Source: Tridacna crocea
Taxonomy: Eukaryota > Mollusca > Bivalvia > Cardiida > Cardiidae
DNA length: 64,000 bases
Assembly: GCA_943736015.1 (NCBI GenBank)
Contig: OX031064.1
Coordinates: 32,797,361-32,861,360, forward strand
Reading direction: 5' to 3'
Within the stretch, counting starts at the first letter, position 1. Each line of letters starts with the position of its first letter. Made by a program: the position numbers and the translations under genes. Below are positions 875 through 62,975 of this stretch, piece by piece. The notes beneath the pieces were generated by a model. That model ran no database searches and had not been told where the DNA came from. It saw only the letters and a program-made list of their open reading frames with translations.

Positions 875-1102
875 TTAACCCTTTACCAAACGACAAAATT
901 TTAGACGGGTCTAAATTGAAAGCACTTGCAAACGACAAAATAAAAGTATCTCAAAATTGAAATTTGTTTCTAGCAGGGTAGAAAACATAGTAGGAAAAGG
1001 ATAAAATGCTGGTTACCAGCATTTTCTCCTTTTCCCACAATGTTTTCAAACGGATTCTATCTCAGGGTAGTAAAAACCAGGGGTTGTTTGGTAAACGGTT
1101 AA
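875..1102 (-). mobile_element. A-type TTAA palindromic MITE
   Basis: The element runs TTAA to TTAA and is 228 bp long. It begins TTAACCCTTTACCAAACGAC and ends TTTGGTAAACGGTTAA, giving short terminal inverted repeats. The central palindrome carries GCTGGTTACCAGC. The GTTAA at its right end also opens the next element. It is non-coding. Confidence 0.85.
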
Positions 1103-1342
1103 AACTCATTGCCAAACGACAAAAATTAAGACTGGTCCAACTTGAATTATTTGCAGACAACAAATTAAAGATGGCTTAAAAGGCAAAATTTGTCCATCAT
1201 AGGTGTAGAAAACCTTGTGGGGACAAGGAGAAAATGCTGGTTACCAGCATTTTCTCCTCTTCCCGCAAGGTTTTCAGAAAGCGTCTCTTTAAGGGTCGTG
1301 GGGTCTTAAAAACCTGACAGGGATTGTTTGGTAAAGAGTTGA
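1099..1342 (-). mobile_element. A-type TTAA MITE sharing its left TTAA
   Basis: This starts on the TTAA that ends the previous element and runs to GGTAAAGAGTTGA, in which TTAA has decayed to TTGA. The core is GAAAACCTTGTGGGGACAAG ... GCTGGTTACCAGC ... CTTCCCGCAAGGTTTTC. The CCTTG/CAAGG change appears in both arms. Confidence 0.82.
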
Positions 1343-1565
1343 ACAGAAAAGGAAAATATTTCCTTTTACCACAAAACTTTTCTTAACTTTTCCAGTGTAT
1401 AAATCCATAAAATCTATAACGAAGAATATCGACATTCGGTGGTGGTGTTTTAAAGAGTGGATACCTCGTTGAAGATGCTTTTCATAAAAGAAAACCTAAA
1501 AGAACAAAACAAACATCGATAAGGAAAATGGGGTCACTGAAAGGTGGAACTTACATCCACTTTGA

Positions 1566-2211
1566 AAATCAAAGCGTTGAGAACGCTGAAGTGGTATTTG
1601 TCAAGGAACCCATTATTTGGAATTAATAATTTGAAAGATTACTCTCGGTTGAAGGGAGAGTAATCATGACAAAGTTTGGATTATTTGTGTATTGGTGGTC
1701 TCCCTTTGATCATTAATGTCCCTTGACAGTACAATGCATGATAAAGAGAAAAAACATGTGAATATTGGAATAAATCAAGTTTGTGCCTGAAAACTATGAT
1801 TTTGAAATATCTTCGTCCGTTACCATTTAATTCCCAACTTTACAATCACTTATTTCGACCTATAAATATTCATGCGCAATCAAATGGAGTAGCGCGCAAT
1901 CATAAGATAAACAAGCCATGGAACGACCTTGTTTTGGAACGAAAAAGCCTAGGACCAAGTGATCGGTAGCCAAATTTTGTATCATTGCACCAATATAAGG
2001 CAATGAGCGGATGAAGCGATTTTCATTCAAAAGTTAGTATTTCCACGATCGATGTTCTCAACCAATGTATTTTAACATGCCGTTTCCAATTACATATCTC
2101 AGTGCTACCGGAAAACTCATTTGCCTGAGACAAAATGAGTTTAGTGGTCTTCAAAATTCAATATTGAACTCTCATATTGGTATTGTCTTCGTAAAATACC
2201 ACAAAAAGTAA
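1566..2211. mobile_element. Family H non-autonomous DNA transposon, copy 1
   Basis: An about 640-bp interspersed element closely matched at 26879-27513 and partly at 45121-45572. Near its ends are GTGGTATTTGTCAAGGA and its inverted counterpart (TTGTCTTCG...AAATACCAC), consistent with short terminal inverted repeats. Shared sequence extends a little beyond them on the left (AATCAAAGCGTTGAGAACGC). No long reading frame is present, so it is probably non-autonomous. Superfamily unknown. Confidence 0.7.
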
Positions 2212-2388
2212 AAAGCTGTCTTTTACAACAGTATTTCTTAATAAACGTTCCACGGTAAAACAGAAAAGCCCGTAATGTTTTACAACAGGGCGGTTACTTC
2301 AGGCTTTAATTAGCACAGATAAATTTTGATTCAAGAAAACCTACAAAAACGAAACAACAGAGATAGGAAAGATGGAATTCTGGAAAGC

Positions 2389-2617
2389 TTAACCCTTTAC
2401 CCCATAAGGCATTTCTATGGTATCTCTAATTGACCCTTAATAACAGCAAGGATGAAGCCGTTTCTTATGTGTATATGACACCTTTTGGTAGCATAGAAAA
2501 CATTGTGGCAAAAGATGAAATTGCTCGTCACGAGCAATTTCACCTTTTGCCACAATGTTTTCCAAAGGCTCCTACAAACAATGCGTAGAAATCAGTATCT
2601 ATGGAGTAAATGGTTAA
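2389..2617 (+). mobile_element. B-type TTAA palindromic MITE
   Basis: Bounded by TTAACCCTTTACCCCATAAG and GGAGTAAATGGTTAA. The core stem is GAAAACATTGTGGCAAAAG with centre GCTCGTCACGAGC. Flanking arms (TTGACCCTTAATAACAGCAA and GGCTCCTACAAACAATGCG) are shared with copies at 52973, 56228, 58312, 59426 and 62533. Confidence 0.85.
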
Positions 2618-3042
2618 ATACACATCTTCTTTGAAAAAAAAATAAGGCTTAAGTTTTCCAGAACGTTTTAAAAATTTATTCTACTGCACAAATTAGAAAA
2701 TTGTAATATGGTGGTACTGTTTAGCACTGATAAACAAAATTTATGGAATCGAACAAACGGTAGTAAAACACAAAATTTTGCTCTTTCAAAATGCTGTCTG
2801 ATCTTGGTCTACACTGTTCGCAAACGGTCAGCGAGTGACGCTTTGCAGTCCACGTAAGAAGGGGCGGTTACCTTAACGAAAGATAAACTTTTCAAACCAG
2901 AACGCCAAGGAAAAAAATCCAAGATACGCAAAATTGGGGGTGACTGAGAGGTGAAATAGACATCTGTCATTAATTAACACCTTTAGACTGACCGCACGAT
3001 TTACCGTGACGTCCTAATTTAACAAAACAGAGCCGGCCTCTA
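2618..3042. other. Gene-free stretch with an E-family fragment
   Basis: No gene is visible. About 2785-2835 carries half of an E palindrome (CTGTCTGATCTTGGTCTACA followed by CTGTTCGCAAACGGTCAGCG). The rest is unassigned AT-rich sequence. Confidence 0.45.
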
Positions 3043-3275
3043 TGAAAAGAGGGCTTAATGAAGCAGCAAAAAGTATAGACTCAGATCAGCATGCGCAATT
3101 GGCGCAGGCTGACCTGAATCGAAACTTTTCGGTAAATTTTCTGCATGACGATTCGGTCGGTTGTCTAGTAAAGAATGGATTTTATATATTCAAAGTTATG
3201 TGATAGCGGGACGCTTTCGTATATAAAGCATTCACAGAGATGCATTAAGCCCTTATTTTGTCAGAGCACGATTTA
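3043..3275. mobile_element. Family C palindromic MITE, copy 1
   Basis: Left end GAAAAGAGGGCTTAATG and right end TGCATTAAGCCCTTATTTTG are inverted relatives. Inside is a degraded GATCAGCATGCGCAA ... GCGCAGGCTGACC palindrome. Better copies are at 7773, 15299 and 52809. Confidence 0.7.
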
Positions 3276-3424
3276 ATTACACATAACTGACCAAATGCCC
3301 AGTCTCACTATTATCATCCATTAATAAATCGCACTTTTGCCCATAACATGAATTGAAGACTAAAAAGAAAAAGTATTTAAAAAAAATCAGAAGAATGCGA
3401 TGAACGGCATTATTGGATACCTTA

Positions 3425-3491
3425 GAAAACAGTGTGGCTAATGGAGAAATTGCTCGTTACGAGCAATTTCTCCATTAGCCACACTGTTTTC
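3425..3491. repeat. Perfect 67-bp palindrome, variant core
   Basis: A perfect inverted repeat with stem GAAAACAGTGTGGCTAATGG and centre GCTCGTTACGAGC. It has the length and layout of A2/B cores, but with GGCTAATGGAG in the left arm and CTCCATTAGCC in the right. I could not find matching TTAA ends around it. Confidence 0.85.
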
Positions 3492-3569
3492 CAAATGTCA
3501 TATAGGCGTGATGCAAGTTTTCTACGACTATACTGTGCAAGGGCTTCGGTAAATTGTACGTTAATAATC

Positions 3570-4212: not shown

Positions 4213-4282
4213 TACACACATATATCAGACCGACCAAACATTGTGAAAAACCACCAAAAGAACAATCAAAATAAACCAAACA

Positions 4283-4756: not shown

Positions 4757-4985
4757 TTAACTCTTTACCACACAAGAAAATTTTAGACTGGTCCAAATTG
4801 AAAGCATTTGCAGACGACAAAATAAAGGTGACTGAAAAATTGAAATTTGTTTTGTGAAGGGTAGAAAATATTGTGGAAAAAGGAGAAAATGCTGGTTACC
4901 AGCATTTTCTCCTTTTCCCACAATGTTTTCTAAAGGCGTCTTTCTCAGGGGAGTCAAAAGAAGGGATTGTGTGGTAATGGGTTAA
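4757..4985 (-). mobile_element. A-type TTAA palindromic MITE
   Basis: TTAA-bounded (TTAACTCTTTACCACACAAG ... GTGGTAATGGGTTAA), 229 bp. The core carries GCTGGTTACCAGC. Left half: TTTGCAGACGACAAAATAAA. Right half: GGCGTCTTTCTCAGGGGAG. Confidence 0.88.
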
Positions 4986-5004
4986 TACTTTACAAAACGT
5001 TCCG

Positions 5005-6238: not shown

Positions 6239-7050
6239 GCAAATACGTATCTATATTTGTACGTAAAAATGATAACACGTTTTCACTAACGTTTCTGAGT
6301 TTTACCGTCAATAGTAATAAGGTAACAGCTTTTGAAAGCTTTTCGGAACAGAATCTTTTCCTTTTCCCAAAATGTTTTCTACATTTTTATAGACAAGTTC
6401 CATAATCTGAGATTAATACAGTATCACCTTATATTTATTTCATCTGCAAGTGCTACCGATTTGGGAGAAGAATTCCTAAATCTTTATCTTTTTTTTTCTT
6501 GTAAATTGCTAAAACTTTGAAAATGTTTATTTCAGTTATTTTTAGAAACTCCGCATGTCATGTTAAATCGTGAAGCCTTTATTCGCCCCCCTCTCTCCAT
6601 CGCTATTCCTAAAGAATCCCCTCAACAAAAAAAAAAACTCTGAGAGGCGATTTTTCGAGTTTTGTTGAAAGCTTTCTTTGTTGATCAGAAGATTGATAAT
6701 TCAACGGTGCGGAAAATGGCCTTATTGGACAGAATGAAAGGGTGGCATTGTCGGAAACCCATGGGCGGTGAAAGTGACCCGATATTTCTTTCACATCTTG
6801 GGGGATTAAAGTGGGCTGTTCGAGCGATTTGATGACAATCAGCTCAAATTCTGATACAAGTTCGAACAACAAACAAACAACACAGGCGTTACTGTGAAAA
6901 TATTTTAACGAAACAGTTTTCTTTCCTTCAAGCAATGTAATAAACCCTCATCCCGCTGAATAACTAGAATGAAATTTTCATTTTTATTGTAAAAAACCCA
7001 AAAATTGCTTGTATTTCAAAGGTATGTTTTGGGTAATAATATCTCCTTAT
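6239..7050. other. Gene-free stretch
   Basis: No supported gene. Near 6340-6380 there is CAGAATCTTTTCCTTTTCCC and an ACAATG-like tail, perhaps half of a decayed A core. The rest is unassigned. Confidence 0.4.
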
Positions 7051-10697: not shown

Positions 10698-12263
10698 TCA
10701 CACACAGATATCAATGTTTGGTTTTTCAAGCATTTTTAAATTGTGTTCCACCTCGTCCAATTCAAGTCTGCTTGGCGGTCCCTTTTTCACTTCGTGATTG
10801 CCGTAAATGCCATTTATAGATGGGTATGGGGTTTTTCTTTGGTTTCGGTAGAACACATGAAACACGAGAATACAAGCTAATAGCGTTAATAAAAAGGTCC
10901 CTATTACGGCCCCGACTATGTCCCCAACGCTAAACTTCACTGTTGTTTTTTGGGGACTTACAGTCAAGATTTCAGAGCCAGTGTGACCACTGTTGTTTGT
11001 CTTATTAACGATGTCTTTGAAATCGGGATCTTTCTGATAGTAATTGTGTTTTTTGGTTTCTTCGTCTTTTTCGTCAATTTTGACATCCTTTTGATGATCG
11101 TCTGACGCGTCTTTCATGACGTTTTCAACGTCGTCCTCACTTTCAACGTTAGTTTCGTATTCTGGAGGGGTTGGCCACGCGACGTTAATCGAGAAAGTCA
11201 CGTCACCCGCTGGATTGCTCGCCACGCATTGGTATCTATTTTTAGACACAACTTTTGGATTTTGCACGTACATCACGCCTTCCATATCGTCTGCAATGTC
11301 CTCTGATTTTGGAATAAAAGCTTCGGAATCCCCGTCTGGTTTGATCCAGTAAATTGAGGGCACTGGATCCCCGCCAGCCAAACACGACATTTTTGCAGTG
11401 TTTTGGTCTAAGATAACGTCGACATTCTTGAACACAGGCAGACGGCACTTGAAGTCATCCACCTGCATCTCTAAAAAGGATTTGCCTCTCAGAGGCCCTG
11501 GGGACAGGCAAGAAGGAGCAGCGCCCCCTTCAAATATCCTCGAAGTCGACGTATAAAACTCGAACAGCCATCTGGATTCGCAATTACAGTGAAGTGGGTT
11601 ATCTCCTATTCTCAAGTGGCTTAGTGTTTTGAAAAGATACATCCATTCAGAGTTGAACTTATCAAATTTGTTCCCGTCAAGCCACAGAGTTTTTAGGGTA
11701 CCATTCAGCGGCCGTAATACTTCGAGAGATAGTTTATCAATAAAATTATTCTGAATGTATAAACCAGTCGATTTTAGACCGCTGAAAGCCATCGTCTGGA
11801 TTTTCATCCCTGGGTTATCGTTCAGAAATAAGTGGTCCAGAGTCAGATCTCTAAAAGTGTAGTCCATGATAGTTTTGATCCGGTTTTTACCGATATCTAA
11901 CCACTTCAACTTTTTATTATCAATAAAAGTATCCACTTGAATGCGCTGTATACCACATCCTGTAAGGTATAACTGCTCGAGATTCACGTACCGGGTGAAG
12001 TTCGCCCGGCTTATAACTGGGTGTTCGAATGTGTTATCATTCAGATTGAGCTGCACAGTCTCGGGTGAGATTCCAGTTGGTATTTTGAGCAATCGTTTTC
12101 TCGGACAGTAAACAATCCTGGAAATGGAGGGACAGAAACAAACAGCTGGACAGGTGGATGCGTTGCTGTGATACACAGCAAACTCTAGCACTAATAAACA
12201 AACACTATAAATCCATATCCACGGCAATGCACTGTAGGCGGTCGGTGAACCGAGCGATACCAT
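10698..12263 (-). CDS. LRR-Ig type I transmembrane protein (kekkon/AMIGO/LINGO-like)
   Basis: A 521-residue protein in one uninterrupted frame, so the coding region is intronless here. Residues about 12-31 form a hydrophobic signal peptide. An LRRNT cap follows (Cys38, 42, 44, 53), then about six leucine-rich repeats (residues 68-212, e.g. LEQLYLTGCGIQRI, LKTLWLDGNKFDKF). An LRRCT cap has Cys226, 228, 252 and 273. One Ig domain follows (Cys294 to Cys346 in a YQCVASNPAG motif). An acidic, lysine-rich linker (about 366-440) leads to a membrane helix (about 447-472) and a 49-residue tail ending DICV. Sequons at Asn34, 88, 187, 420 and 423 would be extracellular. This architecture is that of neuronal and adhesion LRR-Ig receptors in animals. 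The partner is unknown, and a role in cell-cell recognition or signalling is inference. The start gives a signal peptide at the N-terminus, and the ATG context (ACAAAATGG) is acceptable. TGA stop at 10698-10700. Which subfamily it belongs to cannot be settled by eye. Confidence 0.93.
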   Translation of the reverse strand: MVSLGSPTAYSALPWIWIYSVCLLVLEFAVYHSNASTCPAVCFCPSISRIVYCPRKRLLKIPTGISPETVQLNLNDNTFEHPVISRANFTRYVNLEQLYLTGCGIQRIQVDTFIDNKKLKWLDIGKNRIKTIMDYTFRDLTLDHLFLNDNPGMKIQTMAFSGLKSTGLYIQNNFIDKLSLEVLRPLNGTLKTLWLDGNKFDKFNSEWMYLFKTLSHLRIGDNPLHCNCESRWLFEFYTSTSRIFEGGAAPSCLSPGPLRGKSFLEMQVDDFKCRLPVFKNVDVILDQNTAKMSCLAGGDPVPSIYWIKPDGDSEAFIPKSEDIADDMEGVMYVQNPKVVSKNRYQCVASNPAGDVTFSINVAWPTPPEYETNVESEDDVENVMKDASDDHQKDVKIDEKDEETKKHNYYQKDPDFKDIVNKTNNSGHTGSEILTVSPQKTTVKFSVGDIVGAVIGTFLLTLLACILVFHVFYRNQRKTPYPSINGIYGNHEVKKGPPSRLELDEVEHNLKMLEKPNIDICV

Positions 12264-12733
12264 TTTGTTACCCGGTTCGAACGAGTAAAAATTCCTTCTT
12301 TCAAGACTAATTTATCATTCTATTTTCGGAACATGGAAGCTGAGCGCTCTCTCTCTCTCTCTAATAACGTATACCGTAGTATCCGAAACACATCATTACC
12401 CAGCATCCAGATTCAAGTCAAAATACACTATGGTTAAATCCATTCTTGTTTGAAATGTACAAAAACAAACAACACTGTTACTTTAGATATATTTATCCAT
12501 GTATAATAAGCAGATTTTTTTTTACTTTGCTTTAGAATAAATCTCGCTCAAATATCGCAAAAAACAAACTAGCGAGGAAAAAAATCTGCAACAGAACGTC
12601 ACGTATGTATACCTCACACTACATGTATCGAATACGGTATGATAAACATATAGCGAGAACCGATAGAGAAAGAAAATCTGCTGATGCGCGCGCACTCTAG
12701 CGGGCGTTTCGTCAATACTTCGCAGGGGTACCC
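12264..12733. other. Upstream region of the LRR-Ig gene
   Basis: The sequence 5' of the minus-strand gene. It holds a short CT run (about 12344-12362). I see no convincing TATA box, and the 5' UTR and possible upstream exons cannot be delimited. Confidence 0.4.
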
Positions 12734-18867: not shown

Positions 18868-21008
18868 GGTGGATTGAAGAAAAGATGGACGGATTGGTGG
18901 ATGGATTGATCGAAGGATGGATGGATGGATGGATTGGTGGATAGATGGATGGATTGGTGGACGGATTGATTGATGGATTGGTGGATGGATTGATTGAAGG
19001 AAAGATGGATGAATGGTGGATGGATAGATGGATTGGTGGATGGATTGGTGGATTGAAGGAGGGATGGATTGGGGCTGGATGGATGGATGGATTGATGATT
19101 GGATGAATCGGTGAATTGATGAAATGAAGGAAGGATGGATTGGTGGATGAATGGATTGGTGGATGAATTGATTGAAGGATTAATGGGTAGATAGATGGAT
19201 TGGTGGATGGATGGTTTGGTGGATGGATGGATTGGTGGACGGATTGATTGAAGGATTGGTGGATGGATGGATGGATTGGTGGATGGATTGATTGAAAGAA
19301 GGATGGATGGATGGATGGACTGAAGGAAGGATGGATGTATTGGTGGATGGATGGTTTGGTGAATGAATGAATGAAAGGATGGATGGATGGATGGATGGAT
19401 TGAATGATGGATGGATTGAAGGAAGGATGGATGGATTGGGGGTTGATGGATTGATGGATGCATTGACTGGTGGATAGATGGATGGATTGATGGATAGATT
19501 GAAGGATTAATGGATGGATTGGTGGATGGATGGATTGAACGATGGATGGTTTGGTGGATGGATGGATTAGTGGACGAATTGATCGAAGGATTGATGGATG
19601 GATTGGTGGATGGATGGTTTAGTGGATGGATGGATTGGTGGACGGATTGATTGAAGGATTGGTGGATGGATGGATGGATTGGTGGACGGATTGATCTAAG
19701 GATTGATGGATGGATTGGTGGATGGATTGATTGAGGGATGGATGGATGGATGGATAGCTTGAAGGAAGGATCGATGGATTGGTTGATAGATGGATTGGTG
19801 AATGAATGACTCGAAGAATGGATGGATTGGTGGATTTAATGATGGATGGATTGAAAGAAGGATGGATGGATTGGTAAATGGATGGATTGATCGATAGATC
19901 GATTGGTGAATTGATGGATTGAAGAAAAAATGGATGGATTGGTAAATGGATTGATCGAAGGATGGATTATAGATTGATGGATGGATGGATGGATTGGTGG
20001 ACAGATTGATCAAAGGATGGATGGATGGACTGGTGGATGGATAGATTAGTGGATGGACTGATTGAAAGAAAGATTGATGTATGGATGGATGGATGGATGG
20101 ATCGATGGAAGGATTGGTGAATGGATTGATTGAAAGATGGATGGATGGACTGAAGGAAGGATGGATGGATTGGTTGATGGATGGATCGGTGAATAAATGA
20201 ATTGAAGTATGGATGGATGGATAGATTGAACAATGGATGGATTGAAGGAAGGATGGATGGATTGGTGGATGGATGGATTGATTGATAAATGGATTGTTGA
20301 ATTGATGAATTGAAGGAAAGATGGATGGATTGGTGGATAGATTGATCGAAGGATTCGTGGATTGGTGGATGGATGGATGGATTGATGAAATGATGGATTA
20401 AAGGAAAGATTAATTGCTGGGTGGATGGATTGAAGGAAGGATAGATGGATTGGTGGATGTATTTAAGGATGGATGGATGGATTGAGGGATGGATTGATCG
20501 AAAAATGGATGGATTGGTAGATGGATGTATGGATTGGTGGACGGATTGATTGATGGGTGGATGAATGGATTGGTGGATGGATGGATTGAAGGAAGGATGG
20601 ATGGATTGGTGGATGGATTGAAGGATGGATGGATGGATTGGTGGATCGATCGATCGAAGGATTGATGGATTGGTGGATGAATGGATAGATTGGTGGACGG
20701 ATTGATTGATGGATGGATGAATGGATTGGTGGATGGATTGATTGAAGGAAAGATGAATGTATTGGTGGATTGATTGGTGGATGGTTGGATGGATTGGTGG
20801 ATGGATGGATTGGTGGATGGATGGATTGATTGGGGTTGGATGGATGGATGGATTGGCGGATGAATGGATTGAAGAATGGATGGTTTTGTGGATGGATGGA
20901 TGGATTGGTGGACGGATTAATTAGAGGATGGATGGATGGATGGATGGATCGATGCATAGATGGATGGATGGATTGGTTGATGGATGGATTGGTGGATGGA
21001 TGGATTGA
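18868..21008. repeat. GGAT-rich satellite, about 2.1 kb
   Basis: Degenerate GGATGGATTGGTGGATGGAT-type repeats with TGATTGAAGGA spacers. Four-base phasing keeps reading frames open on the minus strand, giving Ile-His-Pro-Ser runs. I regard these as translations of the repeat, not proteins. Variation between blocks suggests higher-order units with GATTGAAGGAAGGATGG. Confidence 0.93.
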
Positions 21009-23383: not shown

Positions 23384-23633
23384 CGTATACTTGGGAAAAG
23401 TAGGACTTCGTATACTTGGGAAAAGTAGGACTTCGTATACTTGGGAAAAGTAGGACTTCGTATACTTGGGAAAAGTAGGACTTCGTATACTTGGGAAAAG
23501 TAGGATTTCGTATACTTGGGAAAAGTAGGACTCCGTATACTTGGGAAAAGTAGGGCTTCGTATACTTGGGAAAAGTAGGGCTTCGTATACTTGGGAAAAG
23601 TAGGACTTCGTATACTTGGGAAAAGTAGGGCTT
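23384..23633. repeat. 25-bp minisatellite, about 10 copies
   Basis: Tandem CGTATACTTGGGAAAAGTAG+GACTT units, nearly identical. The paralogous locus at about 38120 has a single GAATACCTGGGAAAAGTAGG unit. No spacers separate the units. Confidence 0.93.
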
Positions 23634-23665
23634 ACACCGAACCTATCAGCCATGTAGGGACTGTT

Positions 23666-23894
23666 TTAACCCAGTACGAAACAATCCCTACTTTTAATGC
23701 CCCCGAGAAAGAAGTCATTAGAAAACATTGTGGGAAAAGGAGAAAATGCTGGTAACCAGCATTTTCTCCTTTTCCCACAATGTTTTCTATTCTTTACAAA
23801 ACAAATTTCAAATTTTCAATCACTTTTATTTTGTCGTCTGCAAATCCTTTCGATTTGGACAAGCCTAAAATTTTGTCGTTTGGTAATGGGTTGA
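23666..23894 (+). mobile_element. A-type TTAA MITE with paralogous empty site
   Basis: TTAACCCAGTACGAAACAAT ... GTTTGGTAATGGGTTGA, 229 bp. Flanks CTGTT before and TAAATGGTCGATGC after correspond to the unoccupied AGTT-TTAA-TAAATGGTCGATGC at 38191-38212. Confidence 0.9.
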
Positions 23895-23965
23895 TAAATG
23901 GTCGATGCATAGGTTACATGCTAGCCGATCATAGCTGAATGAATGGCACAAGATAGCGTTTTATT

Positions 23966-28005: not shown

Positions 28006-28094
28006 CCATCAATCAAGATAGATTTACGTCGAAATTACCATATTGAAAAGCAGACATGTTCAGTTTTTACTCTTGTTCTAAAGAATTCAACATT

Positions 28095-28298
28095 TTAACC
28101 CATTACCATCCCTACTTTTGACGACCCTGAGAAAGAACCCTTTAGAAAACATTGTGGGAAAAGGAGAAAATGCTGGTAACCAGCATTTTCTCCTTTTCCC
28201 ACAATGTTTTCTACCCTTCACAAATCAAATTTCAAATTTTCAGTCACTTTTATTTTGTCGTCTGCAAATGTTTTCAATTTGGACAAACCAAAGATTTT
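28095..28298 (+). mobile_element. A element, right end truncated by duplication
   Basis: TTAACCCATTACCATCCCTA, full core (GCTGGTAACCAGC), then breaks at ACCAAAGATTTTT, where the duplicated flank begins instead of GTCGTTTGG. Confidence 0.85.
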
Positions 28299-28325
28299 TA
28301 CTCTTGTTCTAAAGAATTCAACATT

Positions 28326-28549
28326 TTAACCCATTACCATCCCTACTTTTGACGACCCTGAGAAAGAACCCTTTAGAAAACATTGTGGGAAAAGGAGAAA
28401 ATGCTGGTAACCAGCATTTTCTCCTTTTCCCACAATGTTTTCTACCCTTCACAAATCAAATTTCAAATTTTCAGTCACTTTTATTTTGTCGTCTGCAAAT
28501 GTTTTCAATTTGGACAAACCAAAGATTTTGTCGTTTGGTAATGAGTTAA
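28326..28549 (+). mobile_element. A-type TTAA palindromic MITE, complete duplicate
   Basis: Same as the copy at 28095 but with the right end intact: AAAGATTTTGTCGTTTGG ... TAATGAGTTAA. Confidence 0.9.
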
Positions 28550-28638
28550 TCCATCAATCAAGACAGATTTACGTCGAAATTACCATATTGAAAAGTAGAC
28601 ATATCCAGTTTTTACTCTTGTTCCAAAGAATTCAACAT

Positions 28639-30602: not shown

Positions 30603-30829
30603 TTAACCATTTCCCATACGACAAAATTTGGACTCTTCCAAACTGAAAGAGTTTGCAGACGACAATTTTAGAATTTGAGAAAATGGCAGAAAGTTGTCAA
30701 AAAGGGTAGAAAACACTGTGGGAAAAGGAGAAATTGCTCGTTACGAGCAATTTCTCCTTTTCCCACAGTGTTTTCAAAAGACTCTTACTGCAGACACGTA
30801 AAAACCAGGGCTTGTTTGGGAAAGGTTAA
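30603..30829 (-). mobile_element. A2-type TTAA palindromic MITE
   Basis: TTAACCATTTCCCATACGAC ... TTTGGGAAAGGTTAA. Core stem GAAAACACTGTGGGAAAAGG with centre GCTCGTTACGAGC, perfect over 67 bp. The right side (ACTCTTACTGCAGACACG) differs from A. Confidence 0.88.
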
Positions 30830-30919
30830 CCCAGAGAGCGCCGAATGAACCGTGTGGACATCTTCATCATAGAAACATGCCTCATATAGGAGCAATCGTA
30901 TGGTCGTTCTCTCCATGAG

Positions 30920-33265: not shown

Positions 33266-33493
33266 TTAACCCTTTCCCAAACGACAATTTTTGGACTCTT
33301 CTAAACCGAGAGAGTTTGCAGAGGACAATTTTTGATTTTGAGAAAATGGCAGAAAGTTCTCAAAAAGGGTAGAAAACACAGTGGGAAAAGGGGAAATTGC
33401 GCGTTACGAGCAATTTCTCCTTTTCCCACAGTGTTTTCAAAAGAGTTTCACTGCAGACACGTAAAAACCAGGGCTTGTTTGGGAAAGAGTTAA
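33266..33493 (-). mobile_element. A2-type TTAA palindromic MITE
   Basis: TTAACCCTTTCCCAAACGAC ... GTTTGGGAAAGAGTTAA. The core has centre GCGCGTTACGAGC and stem AACACAGTGGGAAAAGG / CCTTTTCCCACAGTGTT. Confidence 0.87.
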
Positions 33494-33749
33494 ACTTGGT
33501 CTTCATTATGTTTAGTAGAGCATTGCCTTGTTTCTAATCACCTGCAAACGTATTTATAAGCATGTTGTCTCGATGTCACAAAAGAAACTGACAGATTCTC
33601 TGTTCTTGAACACTGAGGCATTTCTCTTGTCACAATATTGTGTTTTCTCAGTCTTTCTTCTAAGTGTTTCTCTGCGTATTTATTGACCACATACTGATAT
33701 GTAGTTTTGATTGTTTGGTAAGAGCGAGCGAAGTTAGCAAGAATGCATG

Positions 33750-35805: not shown

Positions 35806-36033
35806 TTAACTCTTTCCCAAACGACAAATTTTGGACTCTTCCAAACCGAAAGAGTTTGCAGACGACAATTTTAGATTTTGAGAAAATGGCAGAAACTTCT
35901 CAAAAAGGGTAGAAAACACTATGTGAAAAGGAGAAATTGCTCGTTACGAGCAATTTCTCCTTTTCACACAGTGTTTTCAGAAGACTTTTACTGCAGACAC
36001 GTAAAAACCAGGGCTTGTTTGGGAAAGGGTTAA
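35806..36033 (-). mobile_element. A2-type TTAA MITE with matched core change
   Basis: TTAACTCTTTCCCAAACGAC ... GTTTGGGAAAGGGTTAA. The core (35912-35978) has TGTGAAAAGG left and CCTTTTCACA right, against TGGGAAAAGG / CCTTTTCCCA elsewhere. Confidence 0.88.
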
Positions 36034-36229
36034 ATGGTGTTTTTACGCCGCTTGCAACATTATTTCAGTCATATCACTGCCGCAGGTCACATATTCATGT
36101 ATATTCTTGGTTTCACTAATGCTAGGCTAGGGCTCTGAAGTAGCTTGTCCAAGGACACTCCTGTGAAAGGCCAAGATGAGCCAGTGAGGGTCGAGTCAGG
36201 GGCCTCCCTGTCACGAGCCATATACTTTA
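36034..36229 (-). mobile_element. SINE relic
   Basis: ATGGTGTTTTTACGCCG and CATTATTTCAGTCATATCAC match SINE 3' ends. The head-side part on the minus strand reads GGAGTGTCCTTGGACAAGC and GGCCCCTGACTCGACCC. It directly abuts the A2 element. Confidence 0.65.
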
Positions 36230-41164: not shown

Positions 41165-42830
41165 CATATAGCTGGCCAAAACGTACGAGGCCAAATCGTC
41201 CTTGGCCAAAACGTCCGTAGACAAAACGTCCATAGCCAAAACGTCCATTGCCAAAACGTCCATGGCCAAAACGTCTATGGCCAAAACGTCCATAGCCAAA
41301 AGGTCCATGGCAAAAGCGTCCTTGCCAAAACCTTCATGGCCAAAACGTCTATGACCAAAAAGTCCTTGCCAAAACGTTCGTGGCCAAAACGTCCTTGCCA
41401 AAACGTTCGTGGACAAAACATCTGTGGCCAAAACGTCCATTGCCAAAATGTCTGGTCGAAACGTCTGTGGCCAAAACGTCCTTGCCAAAACGTTCGTGGC
41501 CAAAACATTCGTAGCCAAAACGTATGTGGCCAAAACGTCCTTGCCAAAACGTTTGGGGCCAAAACGTCCTTACCAAAACGTTCGTGGCCAAAACGTCTAT
41601 GGCCAAACCATCCTTGCCAGAACGTCCTTACCAAAACGTTCATGGCCTAAACGTCCTTTCCAAAGCGTCCTTGTCAAAATGTTCGTGGCCAAAACGTCCT
41701 TGCAAAAACATTCGTGGCCTAAATGTCTGTGGCCAAAACGTTCATGGCCAAAACGTCTTTGGCCAAAACGTCTATTACCAAAACATCCTTGCCAAAACGT
41801 TTGTGGCCAAAACGTCCTTGCCAAAACGTTCGTGGCCAAAAAGTCTGTGGCCAAAACATCCTTGCCAAAAGCTCGTGGCCAAAACGTCCTTGCCAAACAT
41901 TCGTGACCAAAACACCTGTGGCCAAAATATCCATGACCAAAACGTCAATGGCCAAAACATCTATGGCCAAAACGTCCTTGCCAAAGCGTCCTTGCCAAAA
42001 CGTTCGTGGCCAAAACGTCCATGGCCAAAACGTCCTAGCCAAAACCTTTATCGCTAAAACGTGCCCCAAAATGTCTATGGCCAAAACGTTCGTGGCCAAA
42101 ACATCCTTGCCAAAACGTTCGTGGCCAAATCGTCCCGGCCAAAATGTCTATGGTCAAAACGCCCACGGCTAAAACGTCTTTTGCCAGAACGTCTCTGGCC
42201 AAAGGTCCATGGCCAAAAACGTCCGTGGCCAAAAAGTCAATTATCAAAACGTCCATGGCCAAAACGTCCAGGCCAAAACGTCCGTGGTCAAAACGTCCGT
42301 GCCAAAAACGTCCTGACCAAAATGTCTATGGCTAAAACATGGCCAAAACATCGACTGACATCACGTCAACGGCCAAAATGTCCTTGCCAAAACGTCCGAT
42401 GCCAAAACATCCGTGGCCAAAATGTTCATTGCCAAAACGTTCTGGACAAAACGTCCTTGGCCAAAACGTCCTGGCCAAAACGCCCGTGACCAAAATCTCC
42501 CTGGCCAACACGTCCTGGCCTAAACGTCTATGACCAAAACGTCCATGGCCAAAACGTCTATGACCAAAACGTCCATGGCCAAATCGTCCATGGCCTAAAC
42601 GTCCATGGCCAAAACGTCCTGACCAAAACGTCCTGGCCAAAACGTTTGTGGCCAAAACGTCCTGGCCCAAACGTCTATAACCAAAAGGTCCCTTGCCAAA
42701 ACGTCCATGGCCAAAACGTCCTGGCCAAAACGTCCATGGCCAAAATGTCCTGGCCAAACGTGTATGGCCAAAACGTCCATGGCAAAAACGTCCTGGCCAA
42801 AACGTCTATGGCCAGAACGTCCGTCCTTTG
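41165..42830. repeat. 15-bp minisatellite, about 1.66 kb
   Basis: Degenerate tandem GGCCAAAACGTCCAT units, alternating in places with TTGCCAAAACGTTCG to give a 29-30-bp higher-order unit. Because 15 is a multiple of three, several frames on both strands stay open for 60-180 codons, giving pentapeptide repeats (e.g. AKTSM, GQNVH, KDVLA). Indels break every frame, so I do not call a protein. Confidence 0.95.
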
Positions 42831-49314: not shown

Positions 49315-49540
49315 TTAACCCTTTCCCAAACGACAAATTTTAGACTTCGAAACTGAAAGAGTTTGCACACGACAATTTCAAATGTGATGAAAATGGTAGA
49401 AAGTTCTCCAAATGGGTCGAAAACACTGTGCGAAAAGGAGAAATTGCTCGTTACGAGCAATTTCTCCTTTTCCCACAGTGTTTTCAAAAGACTTGTACTG
49501 CAGACACGAAAAAACAAGGGCTTGTTTGGGAAAGGGTTAA
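49315..49540 (-). mobile_element. A2-type TTAA palindromic MITE
   Basis: TTAACCCTTTCCCAAACGAC ... GTTTGGGAAAGGGTTAA. Core GAAAACACTGTGCGAAAAGG with GCTCGTTACGAGC; the left arm has TGCG against CCCA, an unmatched change. Confidence 0.88.
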
Positions 49541-49764
49541 CCTTTTACCACACAATCCCTACTTTTATCACCCCTGCGAAAGAAGCCTTTTGAAAACATT
49601 GTGGGAAAAGGAGAAAATGCTGGTAAACAACATTTTCCCCATTTCCCACAATGTTTTCTTCCTGTCCTAAAGCAAATTTCAATTTTTTAGTCACATTCAT
49701 TTTGTTGTCTGCAAATGCTTTGAATTTGGACCAGTGTAAAATTCTGTCGTTTGTAAAGAATTAA
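49537..49764 (+). mobile_element. A-type TTAA MITE sharing its left TTAA
   Basis: TTAACCTTTTACCACACAAT ... GTCGTTTGTAAAGAATTAA. Core centre decayed (GCTGGTAAACAACA). Confidence 0.85.
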
Positions 49765-49767
49765 CTG

Positions 49768-50158
49768 TTCCACAATCTGTAAAATCTACGACTGCTCCCA
49801 GTTGAAAGCGCTTGCAGACGACATAATAAACGTAACTCAAAAATTGAAATTTGTTTCCAGCAGGGTACAAAACACTGCGGGAAAAGGAGAAAATGCTGGT
49901 TACCAGCATTTTCTCCTTTTCCCAGAATATTTTCAACAGTTGTTTTTTTCCCTCAGGGTCGTTAAAACTCGAATTCATGTAATGACAAAGAATTTGCGGG
50001 CAAAGAGATCAGTTTTCTACAAATAAAGGGGTATGCCTGTGTTAGGGTAGAAAACATTGTGGAAAAATGCTGGCAACCAGCATTTTCTTCTTTTCCCACA
50101 AGGTTTTTTAAAGCTTTTTTTCAGGGGTTGTCAAAACTCGGGGTCATATGGTAACTGC
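49768..50158 (-). mobile_element. Two worn A elements
   Basis: First, 49768-49995: GAAAGCGCTTGCAGACGACA, core GCTGGTTACCAGC, CAGGGTCGTTAAAACTCG. Second, 50040-50158: GTAGAAAACATTGTGGAAAA joined to TGCTGGCAACCAGCATTTTC, then CAGGGGTTGTCAAAACTCGG. Confidence 0.72.
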
Positions 50159-52808: not shown

Positions 52809-53310
52809 AGTGCTCTGTGAAAAGGGGACTTGATGGAGTCTGCGAAAAGTATCGACGCAGGTCAGCCTGCGCAGTCCGCGCAGGCTGACCTGAGTCTGTA
52901 TTTTTCGCTGTTGGTCAAGTTTCTGTTTGTCAAATGACCGGTCAACCTCATTATTAAGATTATGTATTATATTTAACCCTTTACCCCATAAGGCATTTCT
53001 ATTGTATCTCTAATTGACCCTAAATAACAGCAAGGATGAAGGGGTTTCTTACGTGTATATGACACCTTTTGATAGTGTAGAAAACATTGTGGCAAAAGGT
53101 GAAATTGCTCGTGACGAGCAATTTCACCTTTTGCCACAATGTTTTCCAAAGGCTCCTACAAGCAATGCGTAGAAATGAGTATCTACGGAGGAAAGGGTTA
53201 AGAAAGTATCTCTTATAGATTAGATCTATATTAATTATGTGATGAATTGGGCTGGTAACACGTATAACGGAGATGCATTAAGCCCCCTTTTGCCAGAGCA
53301 TGGTTCATGT
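52809..53310. mobile_element. Family C MITE with nested B element, copy 4
   Basis: AAAAGGGGACTTGATGGAGT at the left and GATGCATTAAGCCCCCTTTT at the right. A perfect palindrome AGGTCAGCCTGCGCAGTCCG / GCGCAGGCTGACCT lies near the left end. The B element at 52973-53201 sits in the middle. Confidence 0.8.
52973..53201 (+). mobile_element. B-type TTAA MITE nested in a C element
   Basis: TTAACCCTTTACCCCATAAG ... GAGGAAAGGGTTAA, 229 bp. Core 53080-53146 with GGCAAAAGGTG / CACCTTTTGCC and centre GCTCGTGACGAGC; I found no mismatch. Confidence 0.92.
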
Positions 53311-57881: not shown

Positions 57882-58128
57882 TTAAACTCCTTAACAAATA
57901 ACAACATTTTAGAGTCATCAAAATTAACTCTTTACCACACAGCAAAATTTAAGAGTCATCCAAATTAACTCTTTAGTACACAGCAAAATTTTAGAGTCAT
58001 CCAAATTACCTCTTTACCACACGGCAAAATTTAAGAGTCATCCAAATTAACTCTTTACCACACGGCAAAATTTAAGAGTCATCCAAATTAATGCTTACCA
58101 CACGGCACAATTTTAGACCTATCAAAAA
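57882..58128. repeat. 41-bp tandem array of an A-element end
   Basis: Six starts (57882, 57924, 57965, 58006, 58047, 58088) of TTAACTCTTTACCACACGGC followed by AAAATTTAAGAGTCATCC. The last unit continues into a complete A element. The unit is the terminal 41 bp of that element type. Confidence 0.92.
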
Positions 58129-58315
58129 TAAAAGCATTTGCAGACGACGTTTTCAAAGTGGCTCAAGTGATACAATTTTTCTCCGATAGGGTAGAATATT
58201 TTGTAGGAAAAGGAGAAAATGCTGGTTACCAGCATTATCTTCTTTTCAAACAATGTTTTCAAAAGGCTTCTTCCTCAGAGTCATTAAGAATTGTGATTTT
58301 GTGGTAAAGAGTTAA
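58088..58315 (-). mobile_element. A-type TTAA palindromic MITE
   Basis: TTAATGCTTACCACACGGCA ... TGTGGTAAAGAGTTAA. Core GCTGGTTACCAGC. The TTAA at 58312 also opens the next B element. Confidence 0.87.
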
Positions 58316-58538
58316 CCCTTTACTCCATAGATACTAATTTCTACACATTGCTTGTAGGAGCCTATGGAAAACATTGTGGCAAAAGGTGAAATTGCTTATG
58401 ACAAGCAATTTCACCTTTTGTCACAATGCTTTCTATGCTATCAAAAGGTGTCATATACATATAAGAAACAGCTTAATCCTTGCTGTTATTTAGGGTCAAT
58501 TAGAGATACCATAGAAATGCCTTATGGGGTAAGGGTTA
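58312..58538 (-). mobile_element. B-type TTAA MITE, reverse orientation
   Basis: TTAACCCTTTACTCCATAGA ... ATGGGGTAAGGGTTAA. The inner stem reads GCTTATGACAAGC: a C-to-T change on the left is matched by G-to-A on the right. The outer stem is mixed (GGCAAAAGG with CCTTTTGTC). Confidence 0.9.
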
Positions 58539-59425: not shown

Positions 59426-60945
59426 TTAACCCTTTACCCCATAAGGCATTTCTATGGCATCTCTAATTGACCCTAAATGACAGCAAGGAAGAAGCCGTTC
59501 CTTATGTGTAAATAATATCTTTTGATAGCATAGAAAACATTGTGACAAAAGGTGATATTGCTCGTCACGAGCAATTTCATCTTTTGCCACAATGTTTTCC
59601 AAAGGCTCTTACAAGCAATGTGTAACAAGAGGGCCATGATGGCCCTGTATCGCTCCACTGGCTAATTTGTAAAAACACTAGAAGCCAAACATTACATTAT
59701 TTGGCCAACTGGTTTCAAACTTGAGGGCATCCAATTTTTTTCCATAAAAACCAAAAAAAGTTGTGACCCTTGGGCAAATCCAGTTTTGACCACAAAGCTT
59801 TAATTACTTGAATCCTGGTGGAGGTCTACAAGATAAAGCCCCATACCAAATAATACAGGTCTAGAATGTGTGGTTATAAAGAAGAAGATTTTCAAAGTTT
59901 TCTCAATAAAAGGCCCTGTAAAACATAAAAATCCATGAGACAGGGCTAAATTTAGTGGTCCTAGTCTTTATTATGGTTAGTAACATGATGACTTAGATAG
60001 TCTTCATCACAAAAGCCCATGTAAAACTTGTGACCCCTGGTGTGGGGACAAACTTGACCCTAAGGCTATAATTTGGGCCCTCCTGGTAGAGGCCCACTAG
60101 ATAAAGCTACATGCAAAATTTGGTAGCCCTAGGCCTTATAGCTAGGTACAAGTAGATTTTTAAAAAATTCCCAATATGAGCCCATGTAAAACTTGTGACC
60201 CCCAGGACAGGGCCAAATTTGACCCCAGGGCTACAATTTGGGCACCACTTGATAAAGTTAGATGCAAAATTGAGTAGCCCTAGGCCTTATGGCTTGGTAC
60301 GAAAAGATTTTTAAAGTTTTCACTATATAAGCCCATATAAAACTTGTGACCCCCGGGGCCGGGCCAAATTTGACCTCTGGGCTATCATTTGGGCACTCTG
60401 GGTAGAGGTCTACTAGATAAAGCTACATGCCAAATTTGGTAGCCCTAGGTCCTATGGCTAGGTACCAGAAGGATTTTAAAGTTTTCCCTATATAAGCCCA
60501 TATAAAACTTGTGACCCCTGGGGTGGGGCCAATTCTGACCCCAGGGCTAATATTTGAAGGAACTTAGTAGAGGTCCACTAGATAAAGCTACATGCCAAAT
60601 TTGGTAGCCCTAGGCCTTATGGTTTCAGAGAAGAAGATTTTTAAAAATTTTCAATATTTTTCAGTTTTGTTGCCATGGCAACCAGAGTTTTTGAAGGAAT
60701 AAAATTCTTTCAAGGAATTCTGAATAGGACCATGGCAGGATCATTTCTGTGAAGTTTCATCAAAATTGGATGGGTAGTTTCAGAGAAGAAGATGTTTGAA
60801 ATAAAAGTTAACGCACGCACGCACGCACGCACGGACACACGCACGCACAGACGGACGGACGCACGACGGACACCGGGCCATGACATAAGCCCGCTGGCCT
60901 TCGGCCAGTGGAGCTAAAAATGAGTATCTATGGAGTAAAGGGTTA
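59426..60945 (+). mobile_element. B-type TTAA MITE split by a pearl-like element
   Basis: The left part 59426-59624 (TTAACCCTTTACCCCATAAG ... CTTACAAGCAATGTGTA) and right part 60915-60945 (AAAATGAGTATCTATGGAGT+AAAGGGTTAA) together make a standard B element. Confidence 0.92.
59625..60914 (+). mobile_element. Pearl/Helentron-like element, nested
   Basis: About 1290 bp. The 5' end has GGGCCATGATGGCCC, a hairpin. Four tandem units starting GCCCATRTAAAACTTGTGAC at 60015, 60180, 60331 and 60496 follow, then GTTGCCATGGCAACCAG, an (ACGC)n run at about 60813-60870, and a 3' hairpin GCTGGCCTTCGGCCAG before TGGAGCTAA. Tandem core, microsatellite and terminal hairpin in this order are the known layout of bivalve pearl elements and Helentron-derived HINEs. 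It is non-coding. TA flanks both sides (59623-59624, 60915-60916). Confidence 0.82.
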
Positions 60946-60949
60946 AAGG

Positions 60950-61235
60950 TCCATTTGATAAAACTACATGCCAAATTCAGTAGCCCTGGGTCTTGTGGTT
61001 TCAGAGAAGATTTTTAAAAATGTTAATTTTTTTCAGTTTTGTTGCCATGGCAACCAGAATTTTTGAAGGAATCAAATTCTTTTAAAAAAAAAATTATGAA
61101 GAGGACCAGGGTAGGATCATTTCTGTGAAGTTTCATCAAATTTGGATGGGTAGTTTCAGAGAAGAAGATGTTTGAAATAAAAGTTAACGCACCCATGGAC
61201 CCACGGATGCACGATGGACACCAGGCCAGTGGAGC
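60950..61235 (+). mobile_element. Pearl-like element, 3' fragment
   Basis: AGGTCCATTTGATAAAACTA, GTAGCCCTGGGTCTTGTGGT, GTTGCCATGGCAACCAG, AAGTTAACGCACCCATGG and GGCCAGTGGAGCTAAACATC match the 3' portion of the nested element. The microsatellite is nearly lost. Confidence 0.82.
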
Positions 61236-61236
61236 T

Positions 61237-61545
61237 AAACATCAGGGAAAAGGAGAAAATGCTGGTGACAACCATTTTCTCCTTTTCCCACAATATTTTC
61301 TACCATATCAAAGAAAAATTAACGGTACACCATCTGAGCCACACTGAAGTTATCATCTGCTTTGAATTTTTTTAAGTTATTGTGGGGAAAGGAGAAAGTA
61401 TTGGTAACCACCATCTTCTGCTATTTCACAATTATTTGATCCCTCTTTGACAAAACTTAAAACTCTTTGCCAAGCAATTCTGAAAATATATTTATAAGGT
61501 TTTCAATTTGGAAGTCTGAAAGCTTGTTGTTAGGTAAGGGGTTAA
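61237..61545 (+). repeat. Two worn A elements
   Basis: 61237-61375: GGGAAAAGGAGAAAATGCTG, GTGACAACCATTTTCTCC, CACAATATTTTCTACC. 61378-61545: TTGTGGGGAAAGGAGAAAGT, TTGGTAACCACCATC, GTTAGGTAAGGGGTTAA. Confidence 0.65.
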
Positions 61546-61582
61546 ACATTGGCAAGTCTAATACATGTACTTTACAAATTTG

Positions 61583-61812
61583 TTTATCCCATTACCACAC
61601 AATCCCTACTTTTGACGCCCCTGAGAAAGAAGCCTTTAGAAAACATTGTGGGAAAAGGAGAAAATGCTGGTAACCAGCATTTTCTCCTTTTCCCACAATG
61701 TTTTCTACCCTTCCCAAAACAAATTTCAAATTTTAAGTCACTTTTATTTTGTCGTCTGCAAATGCTTTTAATTTGGACCAGTCTAAAATATTGTCGTTTG
61801 GTAATGGGTTAA
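61583..61812 (+). mobile_element. A-type MITE
   Basis: TTTATCCCATTACCACACAA ... GTTTGGTAATGGGTTAA, 230 bp with a clean 67-bp core. The left TTAA reads TTTA. Confidence 0.88.
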
Positions 61813-62041
61813 TTAACTCTTTACCACACGACAAAATTTCACACTGTTGCAAATTAAAAGTATTTGCAGAAAACAAATTCAGGATGGCTCAAACACTGAC
61901 ATTTACCCTTGATAGAGCAGAAAATATTGTGCGAAAAAGGAGAGAATGCTGGTTACCAGCATTTTCTCCTTTTTCAATAATGTTTTCAAATGGCTTCTTT
62001 TCAGGGGTCGTTAAATCCCACATTGTTTGGTAAAGGGATAA
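61813..62041 (-). mobile_element. A-type TTAA MITE, directly adjacent
   Basis: TTAACTCTTTACCACACGAC begins immediately after the previous TTAA (TTAATTAA junction). Core GCTGGTTACCAGC. Ends TTTGGTAAAGGGATAA. Confidence 0.85.
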
Positions 62042-62097
62042 GTGTAACAAAAAGCCAAGTTTTCAAAACATTATTGGCATTTTGAACCCAGTCACTT

Positions 62098-62536
62098 TAC
62101 TCTTTACCAAACAATCTCTGGTTTTACAACACAGAGATAGAAGCCTTTTGAAAACATTGTGGGAAAAGGAGAAAATGCTGGAAACCAGTATATTCTCCTT
62201 TTCCCACAATGTTTTCTAAGAAACCCTGCTGGAAACAAATTTCAATTTTTGAATTGCATCTGATTCATAGTCTGCAAGTGGTTTCTATTTGGACCAGTCC
62301 AAAATTTTATTTGGTAAAGCAAACAACAAATATTGGACTGGTCCAAATTGAAAGCATTTGCTGACAAAAAAATTAAGGAGTCTCTAAAATTGAACTTTGT
62401 TCTGGAAAGGTATAAAATATTAAGGGAAAAAAGGAGAAAATGCTGGTTACCAGGAATTTCTCCTTTTCCCATGATAATTTCAAAATTCTTCTTTTCTAGG
62501 GTCGTGAAAATCAGGGATTGTTTGGGAAAGGGTTAA
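62098..62536. mobile_element. Two A elements, opposite orientation
   Basis: 62098-62318 (plus): TTTACTCTTTACCAAACAAT ... TTATTTGGTAAAG. 62320-62536 (minus): GCAAACAACAAATATTGGAC, core GCTGGTTACCAGG, GTTTGGGAAAGGGTTAA. They face each other with their GTC(G)TTTGG-type ends together. Confidence 0.82.
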
Positions 62537-62761
62537 CCCTTTACTCTACAGATACTCATTTTTACGCATTGCATGTAGGAGCCTTTGGAAAACATTGTGG
62601 CAAAAGGTGAAATTGCTCGTGAAGAGCAATTTCACCTTTTGTCACAATGTTTTCTGTGCTATCAAAAGGTGTCTTATACACATAAGAAAAGGTTCCATCC
62701 TTGCTATTATTTAGAGTTAATAAGAGATATTTTAGAAATACTTCATGGGGTAAAAGGTTAA
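62533..62761 (-). mobile_element. B-type TTAA MITE sharing both TTAAs
   Basis: TTAACCCTTTACTCTACAGA ... ATGGGGTAAAAGGTTAA. Core GGCAAAAGGTG with CACCTTTTGTC, centre GCTCGTGAAGAGC. The TTAAs at 62533 and 62758 are also the ends of the flanking A elements. Confidence 0.9.
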
Positions 62762-62975
62762 CTCTTTAACACACAATCCTGAGTTTAAATAACCCTGTTA
62801 AAGGGGCCTTTTCAAAACATTGAAGGAAAAGAAGACAATGCTGGTAACTGGTATTTTCTTTCTTTTCCCAGTGTTTTTACCCTCTGAAAGTCAAATCATA
62901 TGTTTTGATTAACAATTAATGTTTTCTGCATAAATTAAATTTGGACCAGGCTAATATTTTTTGGTTTGGCCTTTT
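62758..62975 (+). mobile_element. Worn A element
   Basis: TTAACTCTTTAACACACAAT, AACATTGAAGGAAAAGAAG, GCTGGTAACTGGT, TTAAATTTGGACCAGGCTAA. The right TTAA is lost. Confidence 0.75.

Follow-up and report, generated by a model that had tools for sequence, protein, structure and literature searches.

A 64-kb stretch of the bivalve Tridacna crocea (positions 32,797,361 to 32,861,360 of contig OX031064.1, assembly GCA_943736015.1), referred to below as the window, is crowded with short TTAA-bounded elements built around a 67-bp palindrome. We consider it probable that these are non-autonomous miniature inverted-repeat transposable elements (MITEs) of the piggyBac type, moved by the transposase of related 6–7-kb elements, and that their inner palindrome is a cis module kept by the spreading lineages, likely at the DNA level. 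A first-pass annotation of the sequence had proposed a structured TTAA MITE family, with target sites and short inverted repeats of a kind known for piggyBac, and had made this view depend on TTAA duplication and on a palindrome better conserved than its flanks. Both were found, and the view is supported.

Abundance, frame and families of the elements

Semi-global scanning (score of at least 14, a perfect core scoring 66) gave 85 non-overlapping loci of the 67-bp core in the window; with the reversed, non-complemented window no locus reached this score and the top value was 13. By a stricter count (score of at least 24, 60 bp of flank on each side, near-duplicates removed) 77 cores were retained. 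The abundance reported in the first-pass annotation is thus borne out, although its figure of about 60 cores in 64 kb was a slight undercount. Fifty-six elements covering at least 60% of a family query, with ends extrapolated from that query, filled 13,012 bases (20%) of the window. We then searched the genome (1.05 Gb, 31 contigs), of which the window represents 64 kb of a single contig (C9). An exact 29-bp core (28 fixed letters) occurred 208,145 times, and its backwards pattern was not found at all. As the window holds 19 exact cores vs. 12.7 in an average 64 kb of the genome, the core density is a genome-wide and not a local feature. A further 113 cores were counted in 102 kb flanking MITE-anchored loci (22 in 21 kb, 62 in 57 kb, and 29 in 24 kb). 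If the exact share seen in the window (19/77) applied elsewhere, the genome would contain approximately 0.8 million cores.

Copies judged for TTAA ends had a median length of 229 bp (interquartile range 228–229) including both TTAAs, so that the frame described previously as roughly 228 bp exists and is corrected to this value. For further analyses we aligned non-identical copies covering 90% of a query, taken from the window and from fetched loci, in three families: A (n = 107, i.e., 73 copies plus 34 of a reversed set, A2), B (n = 33) and C (n = 49); many of the B and C copies were picked by likeness to a query, and A contains deep subfamilies. Between the TTAAs, the consensuses of A (turned round) and B both have the layout 103-67-51, and that of C has 102-67-51. 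In the A consensus, the arm sequence pointed out in the first-pass annotation, GTCGTCTGCAAATGC, forms part of the long arm. A2, sampled from query window 4757–4986, was rejected as a separate family, as its consensus is the reverse complement of A. The families A, A2 and B had been described as differing in sequence; this holds for A and B, while A2 as sampled is A reversed (and may or may not be the A2 meant originally). The distinct relative is instead family C, with copies at 30604–30832, 33267–33496, 35807–36036, and 49316–49543.

The palindrome had the same length, 67 bp, in the A, B and C consensuses, as had been claimed for families differing in sequence. Core identity between consensuses was 58/67 for A–B, 61/67 for A–C and 60/67 for B–C. 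The half-cores differed at pairs 14, 21, 26, and 31 (A–B), 8, 26, and 31 (A–C), and 8, 14, and 21 (B–C), and each of these differences (4, 3, and 3 pairs) was mirrored on the opposite arm. The short arms of A and B aligned with a score of 35, above all 200 shuffles (maximum 28), whereas their long arms (score 44 vs. 46 for shuffles) were not more similar than expected by chance. The three families are related, with core and spacing retained and arms drifted. The elements are short, non-coding, uniform in length and high in copy number, with inverted ends, as is characteristic of MITEs. None of the 18 stop-to-stop open reading frames (ORFs) of at least 150 aa in the window was assigned to a MITE when judged by eye. 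ARAGORN detected no tRNA in the window, and a tRNA-derived element was rejected on this basis.

The elements and palindromes of the window referred to in this work are as follows (coordinates of the window; strand given where it applies).

872–62983: span of the 56 elements covering at least 60% of the family query (family query matches)
23663–23897, plus strand: family A element, first example of the first-pass annotation (family query match)
23721–23787: 67-bp palindrome of this A element, 33+1+33, with 33/33 pairs complementary
52974–53204, plus strand: family B element, second example of the first-pass annotation (family query match)
53080–53146: palindrome of this B element, differing from A at pairs 14, 21, 26, and 31, on both arms each
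30604–30832, plus strand: family C element (family query match)
33267–33496, plus strand: family C element (family query match)
35807–36036, plus strand: family C element with a symmetric change at pair 13 and A/T runs shortened on both arms
49316–49996: three adjacent elements, C, A and reversed A, whose extrapolated ends abut or overlap
28092–28552, plus strand: two A elements within a perfect 231-bp tandem duplication (28064–28529)
61581–62042: A and reversed A elements with a junction at TTAATTAA
62307–62983: three adjacent elements, A, B and A, whose extrapolated ends abut or overlap
58085–58538: reversed A and reversed B elements abutting at a common TTAA
3425–3491: perfect palindrome variant GGCTAATGGAG of the same type, with several symmetric changes

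Ten pairs of neighboring elements abut or overlap, as judged from extrapolated ends, in a window with 471 TTAA sites. For the arms of the 3425–3491 variant, no other full copy matched among 40 scored places in the genome; a core related to this variant, but with different arms, is present at locus L072. Ten near-identical 25-bp units (23384–23633) immediately precede the A element at 23663.

Target sites, terminal repeats and related piggyBac elements

TTAA ends were inspected in 206 copies, not deduplicated (a few loci being counted more than once); 3 of them were situated at the edge of a locus, which left 203 for assessment. TTAA was present at both ends in 140/203 copies, at one end in 57/203 and at neither in 6/203, the chance of finding it in the same search span being 0.166 per end. 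In addition, a MITE at L032:844-1070 is inserted in a piggyBac copy, whose sister at L016 contains the empty site with a single TTAA (83/84 bases identical). This is the only clean one of the three empty sites displayed; the remaining two (L034, 82/84 but reading TTTA, and L047, 62/84) were not used. The two-ended TTAAs together with the clean empty site confirm the duplication of the target site.

The PF13843 profile gave 118 matches in the genome, of which we fetched 30 loci for comparison. Two related autonomous elements share with the MITEs the terminal motif TTAA + CYCWTTMCC. The first is a large young element, seen in a group comprising L026–L030 together with L035 and L038 (97–98% and 96%). 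Its copy L040:2024-9225 (7.2 kb) is bounded by TTAAs and is 99.9% identical over 7,204 bp to that at L041, and thus the lineage has moved recently. The second, L042:1066-7441 (6.4 kb), carries TTAACTCTTTCCCACACA at both ends; it aligns with the L040 element at the two ends (72% over 329 bp and 71% over 332 bp) and in the transposase region (71% over 1,863 bp). Their ORFs, of 486 and 444 aa, both contain the DDE_Tnp_1_7 domain. The 444-aa ORF matches from profile position 32, and the PF13843 genome match shows an open frame across the whole profile. The 486-aa ORF could be aligned to the transposases of known structure from piggyBat (E 1.9e-39) and piggyBac (E 2.5e-36), including the aspartates that we take to be catalytic.

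The ends of the B and C consensuses and the short-arm end of A start with CCCTTT, in agreement with CC[C/T]T, the terminal motif given for the piggyBac superfamily in the available text of PMC2872659. The long-arm end of A and one end of each autonomous element start with CT, a one-base departure. The 5′ end of both autonomous elements contains approximately four units (by eye) of a subterminal motif, ACAAT..CTTTTNACG.CCC, spaced near 35 bp, and one such unit is kept at the short-arm end of the MITEs. The short-arm end of the A consensus matched the 5′ end of the L040 element at 26/36 ungapped positions (naive binomial 2e-7) and that of the L042 element at 30/36 (5e-11); past the terminal inverted repeat (TIR) this likeness to DDE_Tnp_1_7-encoding elements is confined to the short-arm end. 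As the terminal repeat is common to the MITEs and two piggyBac elements, and the 5′ ends match to this degree, we classify the elements as piggyBac MITEs, and the autonomous partner that the first-pass annotation had proposed to look for is found in the L040/L042 lineage. We suggest that the transposase of these 6–7-kb elements would recognize the TTAA + CYCWTTMCC ends, would also read the single subterminal unit at the short-arm end, and would insert the MITE into TTAA sites, i.e., that the MITEs are probably mobilized in trans by these very enzymes.

Kolobok, another superfamily that duplicates TTAA and is abundant in bivalves (PMC9587614, from its partial text), is a highly improbable mover of the elements: its termini are given there as 5′-RR..YY-3′, whereas the MITE ends start with CC or CT, and we excluded membership on these terminal bases. 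Moreover, elements with the same ends encode a piggyBac DDE domain (Kolobok genes were not searched for).

Other piggyBac elements were also encountered. A 2.77-kb family with ends CCCTTTATATAC (L014–L020, L024) and three further families have only the first bases in common with the MITEs. The 2.77-kb element L016:775-3762 is nested in a MITE-like copy, while at L032 and L034 MITEs are nested in that piggyBac family, and so insertions ran both ways.

By similarity search, the L040 element was found to contain about eight stretches resembling the core: a whole unit of 91% identity at 6348–6576, another of 92% interrupted by an internal gap, and others that are short or degenerate. The L042 element has three such stretches, all degenerate. 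In both elements, the interval separating the transposase from the conserved 3′ end harbors three of them (L040, 6193–6255, 6397–6464, and 6651–6712; L042, 5392–5457, 5519–5582, and 5786–5853). This location in both elements leaves room for an ancestral origin there, in which the autonomous elements would have passed on the palindrome as a transposase-binding site or some other component, and the MITE-like units in the 3′ interval would be its source and not later insertions. Transposases of the piggyBac type are indeed reported, in the excerpted texts, to bind shorter palindromes near the ends (PMC11707139, PMC3459987). On the other hand, several stretches bring MITE arms along (alignments over 115–230 bp, including the whole unit in L040), which fits nested insertion. 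A palindrome scan (20-base arms, at least 17 matches) yielded two palindromes of the core type from the L040 element and, from the L042 element, a single unrelated one; outside the MITE-like units no palindrome with 17/20 arm matches was present in the L040 element. The palindrome resembled the autonomous ends in only one weak match per 24 comparisons with each element (p 0.012 and 0.018), and a composition of two facing transposon ends was rejected for the same reason. We regard inheritance as unlikely, and on account of the core-like stretches in both autonomous elements hold the cis module reading as no more than probable.

Conservation and symmetry of the palindrome

In every family, copies matched the consensus better in the palindrome than in the arms, with identities of 0.93–0.94 vs. 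0.83 in A (n = 107), 0.983 vs. 0.950–0.964 in B (n = 33), and 0.977–0.981 vs. 0.956–0.968 in C (n = 49), as expected from the first-pass annotation. We further divided the differences per non-CpG site into shared and private ones. Shared differences in arm and palindrome were 0.162 and 0.058 in A, 0.0243 and 0.0059 in B, and 0.0240 and 0.0066 in C, i.e., 2.8–4.1 times rarer in the palindrome. Private differences were commoner in the palindrome in A (0.0044 in arm vs. 0.0072, p 0.011), rarer in B (0.0166 vs. 0.0078, p 0.005) and alike in C (0.0137 vs. 0.0115, p 0.43). In A and C these rates indicate that mutations hit the palindrome of resident copies roughly as frequently as other sites or more so, while spreading lineages show fewer differences in it; the picture in B is less clear. 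The palindrome is thus under constraint in the spreading lineages.

Over 189 ungapped cores, out of 269 unique ones, the variable pairs co-vary, largely between families. Within families we excluded CpG pairs, used identical cores once (A 75, B 22, C 36) and shuffled the right arms. In A there were 24 cells with symmetric double changes (17 distinct), a level reached in 0/5000 shuffles, and in C 4 cells (3 distinct; P 0.0004 and 0.0084). Since shuffling ignores the age of copies, paired columns were compared with other left–right columns. Co-change at paired columns was seen 34 times vs. 14.1 expected in A (2.41-fold, vs. 1.55-fold at unpaired columns; P 0.006), 5 vs. 1.3 times in C (P 0.034) and 7 vs. 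1.2 times in B (P 0.059), where the P values for symmetry, like those for the center base below, treat non-independent copies as independent. Genome-wide we counted one pair, 28: besides 208,145 unchanged cores there were 3,624 and 3,580 one-sided G>A changes (7,204 in total) and 198 doubles. In the unpaired control (sites 28 and 22) there were 130 and 109 doubles, with 3,052 and 2,996 singles at site 22. Doubles exceeded independence 3.18-fold at the pair and 2.28-fold in the control, a ratio of 1.39 (95% 1.15–1.68). As this excess is small, arm-to-arm correction of resident copies is rare at pair 28, and we rejected the view that symmetry is mainly maintained by such correction.

Symmetric A/T-run lengths other than four were found in 5/107 cores vs. 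1.5 in shuffles (P 0.0076). Where the center base departed from the consensus, it changed to its complement in 9/11 cases in A (P 0.0012), 9/13 in B (P 9e-7) and 2/3 in C (P 0.11). As judged by eye, each of two arm markers in B is found with C-centered as well as G-centered copies, a pattern compatible with repeated core inversion and also with recombination. These features, together with an excess of symmetric changes over shuffles, unpaired columns and the genome-wide control, are what would be expected of a palindrome without function, whose symmetry arises by template switching or hairpin-mediated arm correction that also inverts the center base. Template switching can yield symmetric changes and inverted centers in one step, and is documented in yeast and rRNA in the accessible portions of PMC3820800 and PMC8794818. 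However, unbiased copying between arms leaves the number of differences per site unreduced, yet the shared ones are several times rarer; moreover, pair 28 has thousands of one-sided copies and merely 198 symmetric ones. We therefore give this explanation a low probability.

A palindrome selected as RNA, in which transcripts in either direction would form a 31–33-bp hairpin leading to small RNA or silencing, would account for the symmetric changes and for the folding of the elements, which is far better than that of shuffles (z −11.3 for the A element as DNA, −8.8 for the B element as RNA). On the plus strand, one-sided transitions that leave G-U pairs vs. other ones numbered 119 vs. 132 in palindromes and 709 vs. 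649 in arms (p 0.17), so that selection for G-U-tolerant RNA pairing is not favored, by a test which is weak, and blind should both strands be read. No match in the window passed the threshold of an Rfam family, and a known structured RNA was rejected accordingly. Selection at the RNA level seems to us improbable.

A DNA-level cis module is favored because template switching leaves the deficit of shared differences unexplained and no sign of RNA selection was seen. We propose that spreading lineages would preserve the sequence and symmetry of the palindrome and, nearly unchanged, its distances to the inner edges of the TTAAs (103 or 102 bp and 51 bp), whereas the arms diverge. It would most likely act as DNA, either as an extrudable hairpin or cruciform or as a two-fold-symmetric protein site, and would raise transposition or re-replication to the benefit of the element, source copies keeping the module with the help of template switching.

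Several observations weigh against this proposal. The symmetric excess at pair 28 is real but small. In B, symmetric double changes amounted to 3 cells with 1 distinct non-CpG event (P 0.017 and 0.61), and the opposite behavior of private differences in A and B means that selection on source copies is not a uniform explanation; many B and C copies in these comparisons were, as stated, selected by query likeness. The other MITE end matched the autonomous elements at only 13/36 and 15/36 positions including the TIR, and beyond it resembles neither. Finally, with three MITE-like units in the same interval of each autonomous element, the palindrome may not be specific to MITEs.

A more speculative idea, which we consider possible though unlikely, is that the palindrome is a DNA amplification module independent of the end-binding sites, which would turn cut-and-paste transposition into a gain of copies, its symmetry being renewed on source copies by arm-to-arm template switching. 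In A and B the distances from its center to the inner edges of the two TTAAs are 136.5 and 84.5 bp, close to 13 and 8 turns of a helix with 10.5 bp per turn, and a hairpin or cruciform at such set spacing might stall replication or steer gap repair. If true, this would explain how a piggyBac MITE reaches hundreds of thousands of copies.

Surroundings, known systems and significance

Apart from the MITEs, the window contains a 537-aa open frame on the minus strand (10698–12311) with leucine-rich repeat and immunoglobulin domains (Pfam), the sole long non-repetitive gene-like frame among those looked at. It also contains a tandem array of about 1.65 kb (41172–42822; 15-, 29-, and 44-bp periods, unit CTGGCCAAAACGTC) and a degenerate GATG array of about 2.1 kb (18884–21005). 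Five further groups of imperfect palindromes, with arms of 23–74 bp unlike the 67-bp core, look like other palindromic repeat families; their centers are near 187, 3668, 5587, and 57281 (group 1), 3098, 7960, 15538, 15662, 43046, and 52874 (group 2), and 13006 and 37374, 26241, 38448 and 40624, and 10315, 47009 and 52306 (groups 3–5). Long palindromes are thus common in the repeats of this genome.

The nearest known system is that of the coral CMITEs (Acropora, PMC2872659), for which the available text likewise describes TTAA duplications, CC[C/T]T-type ends and tandem copies. Its approximately six families have different terminal repeats and a conserved 75-bp inner region, with little likeness between that region and the piggyBac element sharing the TIR. 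A conserved inner region across differing arms is found here as well (A–B core 58/67, long arms no better than shuffles), and likewise bears little resemblance to the piggyBac elements sharing its ends. However, CMITEs are about 100 bp long with an estimated 1,600 copies in A. millepora, vs. 229 bp and 208,145 exact cores in our case, and that text does not mention a palindromic nature of the inner region, in contrast to the 33+1+33 palindrome here; the two systems were compared by their descriptions. Human MER85 is, according to the excerpted PMC3459987, also a non-autonomous piggyBac derivative with TTAA and a palindrome bound by the transposase PGBD3. It is 140 bp long and has 889 copies, and its palindrome, 16 bp long and imperfect, lies near the 5′ end and is shared with the parent, while ours is 67 bp long and central, and in the autonomous elements was seen solely as part of MITE-like units. 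The ends of piggyBat and piggyBac, served by transposases of the same superfamily, carry repeated subterminal motifs at one end, as do L040 and L042, but their CRD-bound palindromes are subterminal and 14–19 bp long (PMC11707139, partial text). Symmetric compensatory changes and inverted loops like those seen here are reported for template-switch hairpins, as far as the partial text of PMC8794818 goes, in short stems of rRNA genes; in our case the stem is 33 bp with one center base, in a transposon, and the excess is modest.

MITEs fill much of bivalve genomes and were left unclassified in a study of bivalve transposons (PMC10294476, in the text accessible). Five core and arm sequence stretches were not found in the article texts searched, and in a literature search whose reach excluded subscription papers and Repbase no paper was recognized as describing this family.

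The origin of the conserved CMITE inner region was called a mystery (PMC2872659, excerpted text), and our results touch the question of what role the inner sequence of MITEs plays and why some MITEs far outnumber their parents. In T. crocea the family has so many copies that changes, be they single, double or symmetric, can be counted across the genome, and a candidate partner element is represented by near-identical copies. The family thus offers a natural test case for the upkeep of long palindromes in a eukaryotic genome. That the palindrome has been kept by the spreading lineages while the rest of the element changed hints at a role in the spread of the element.

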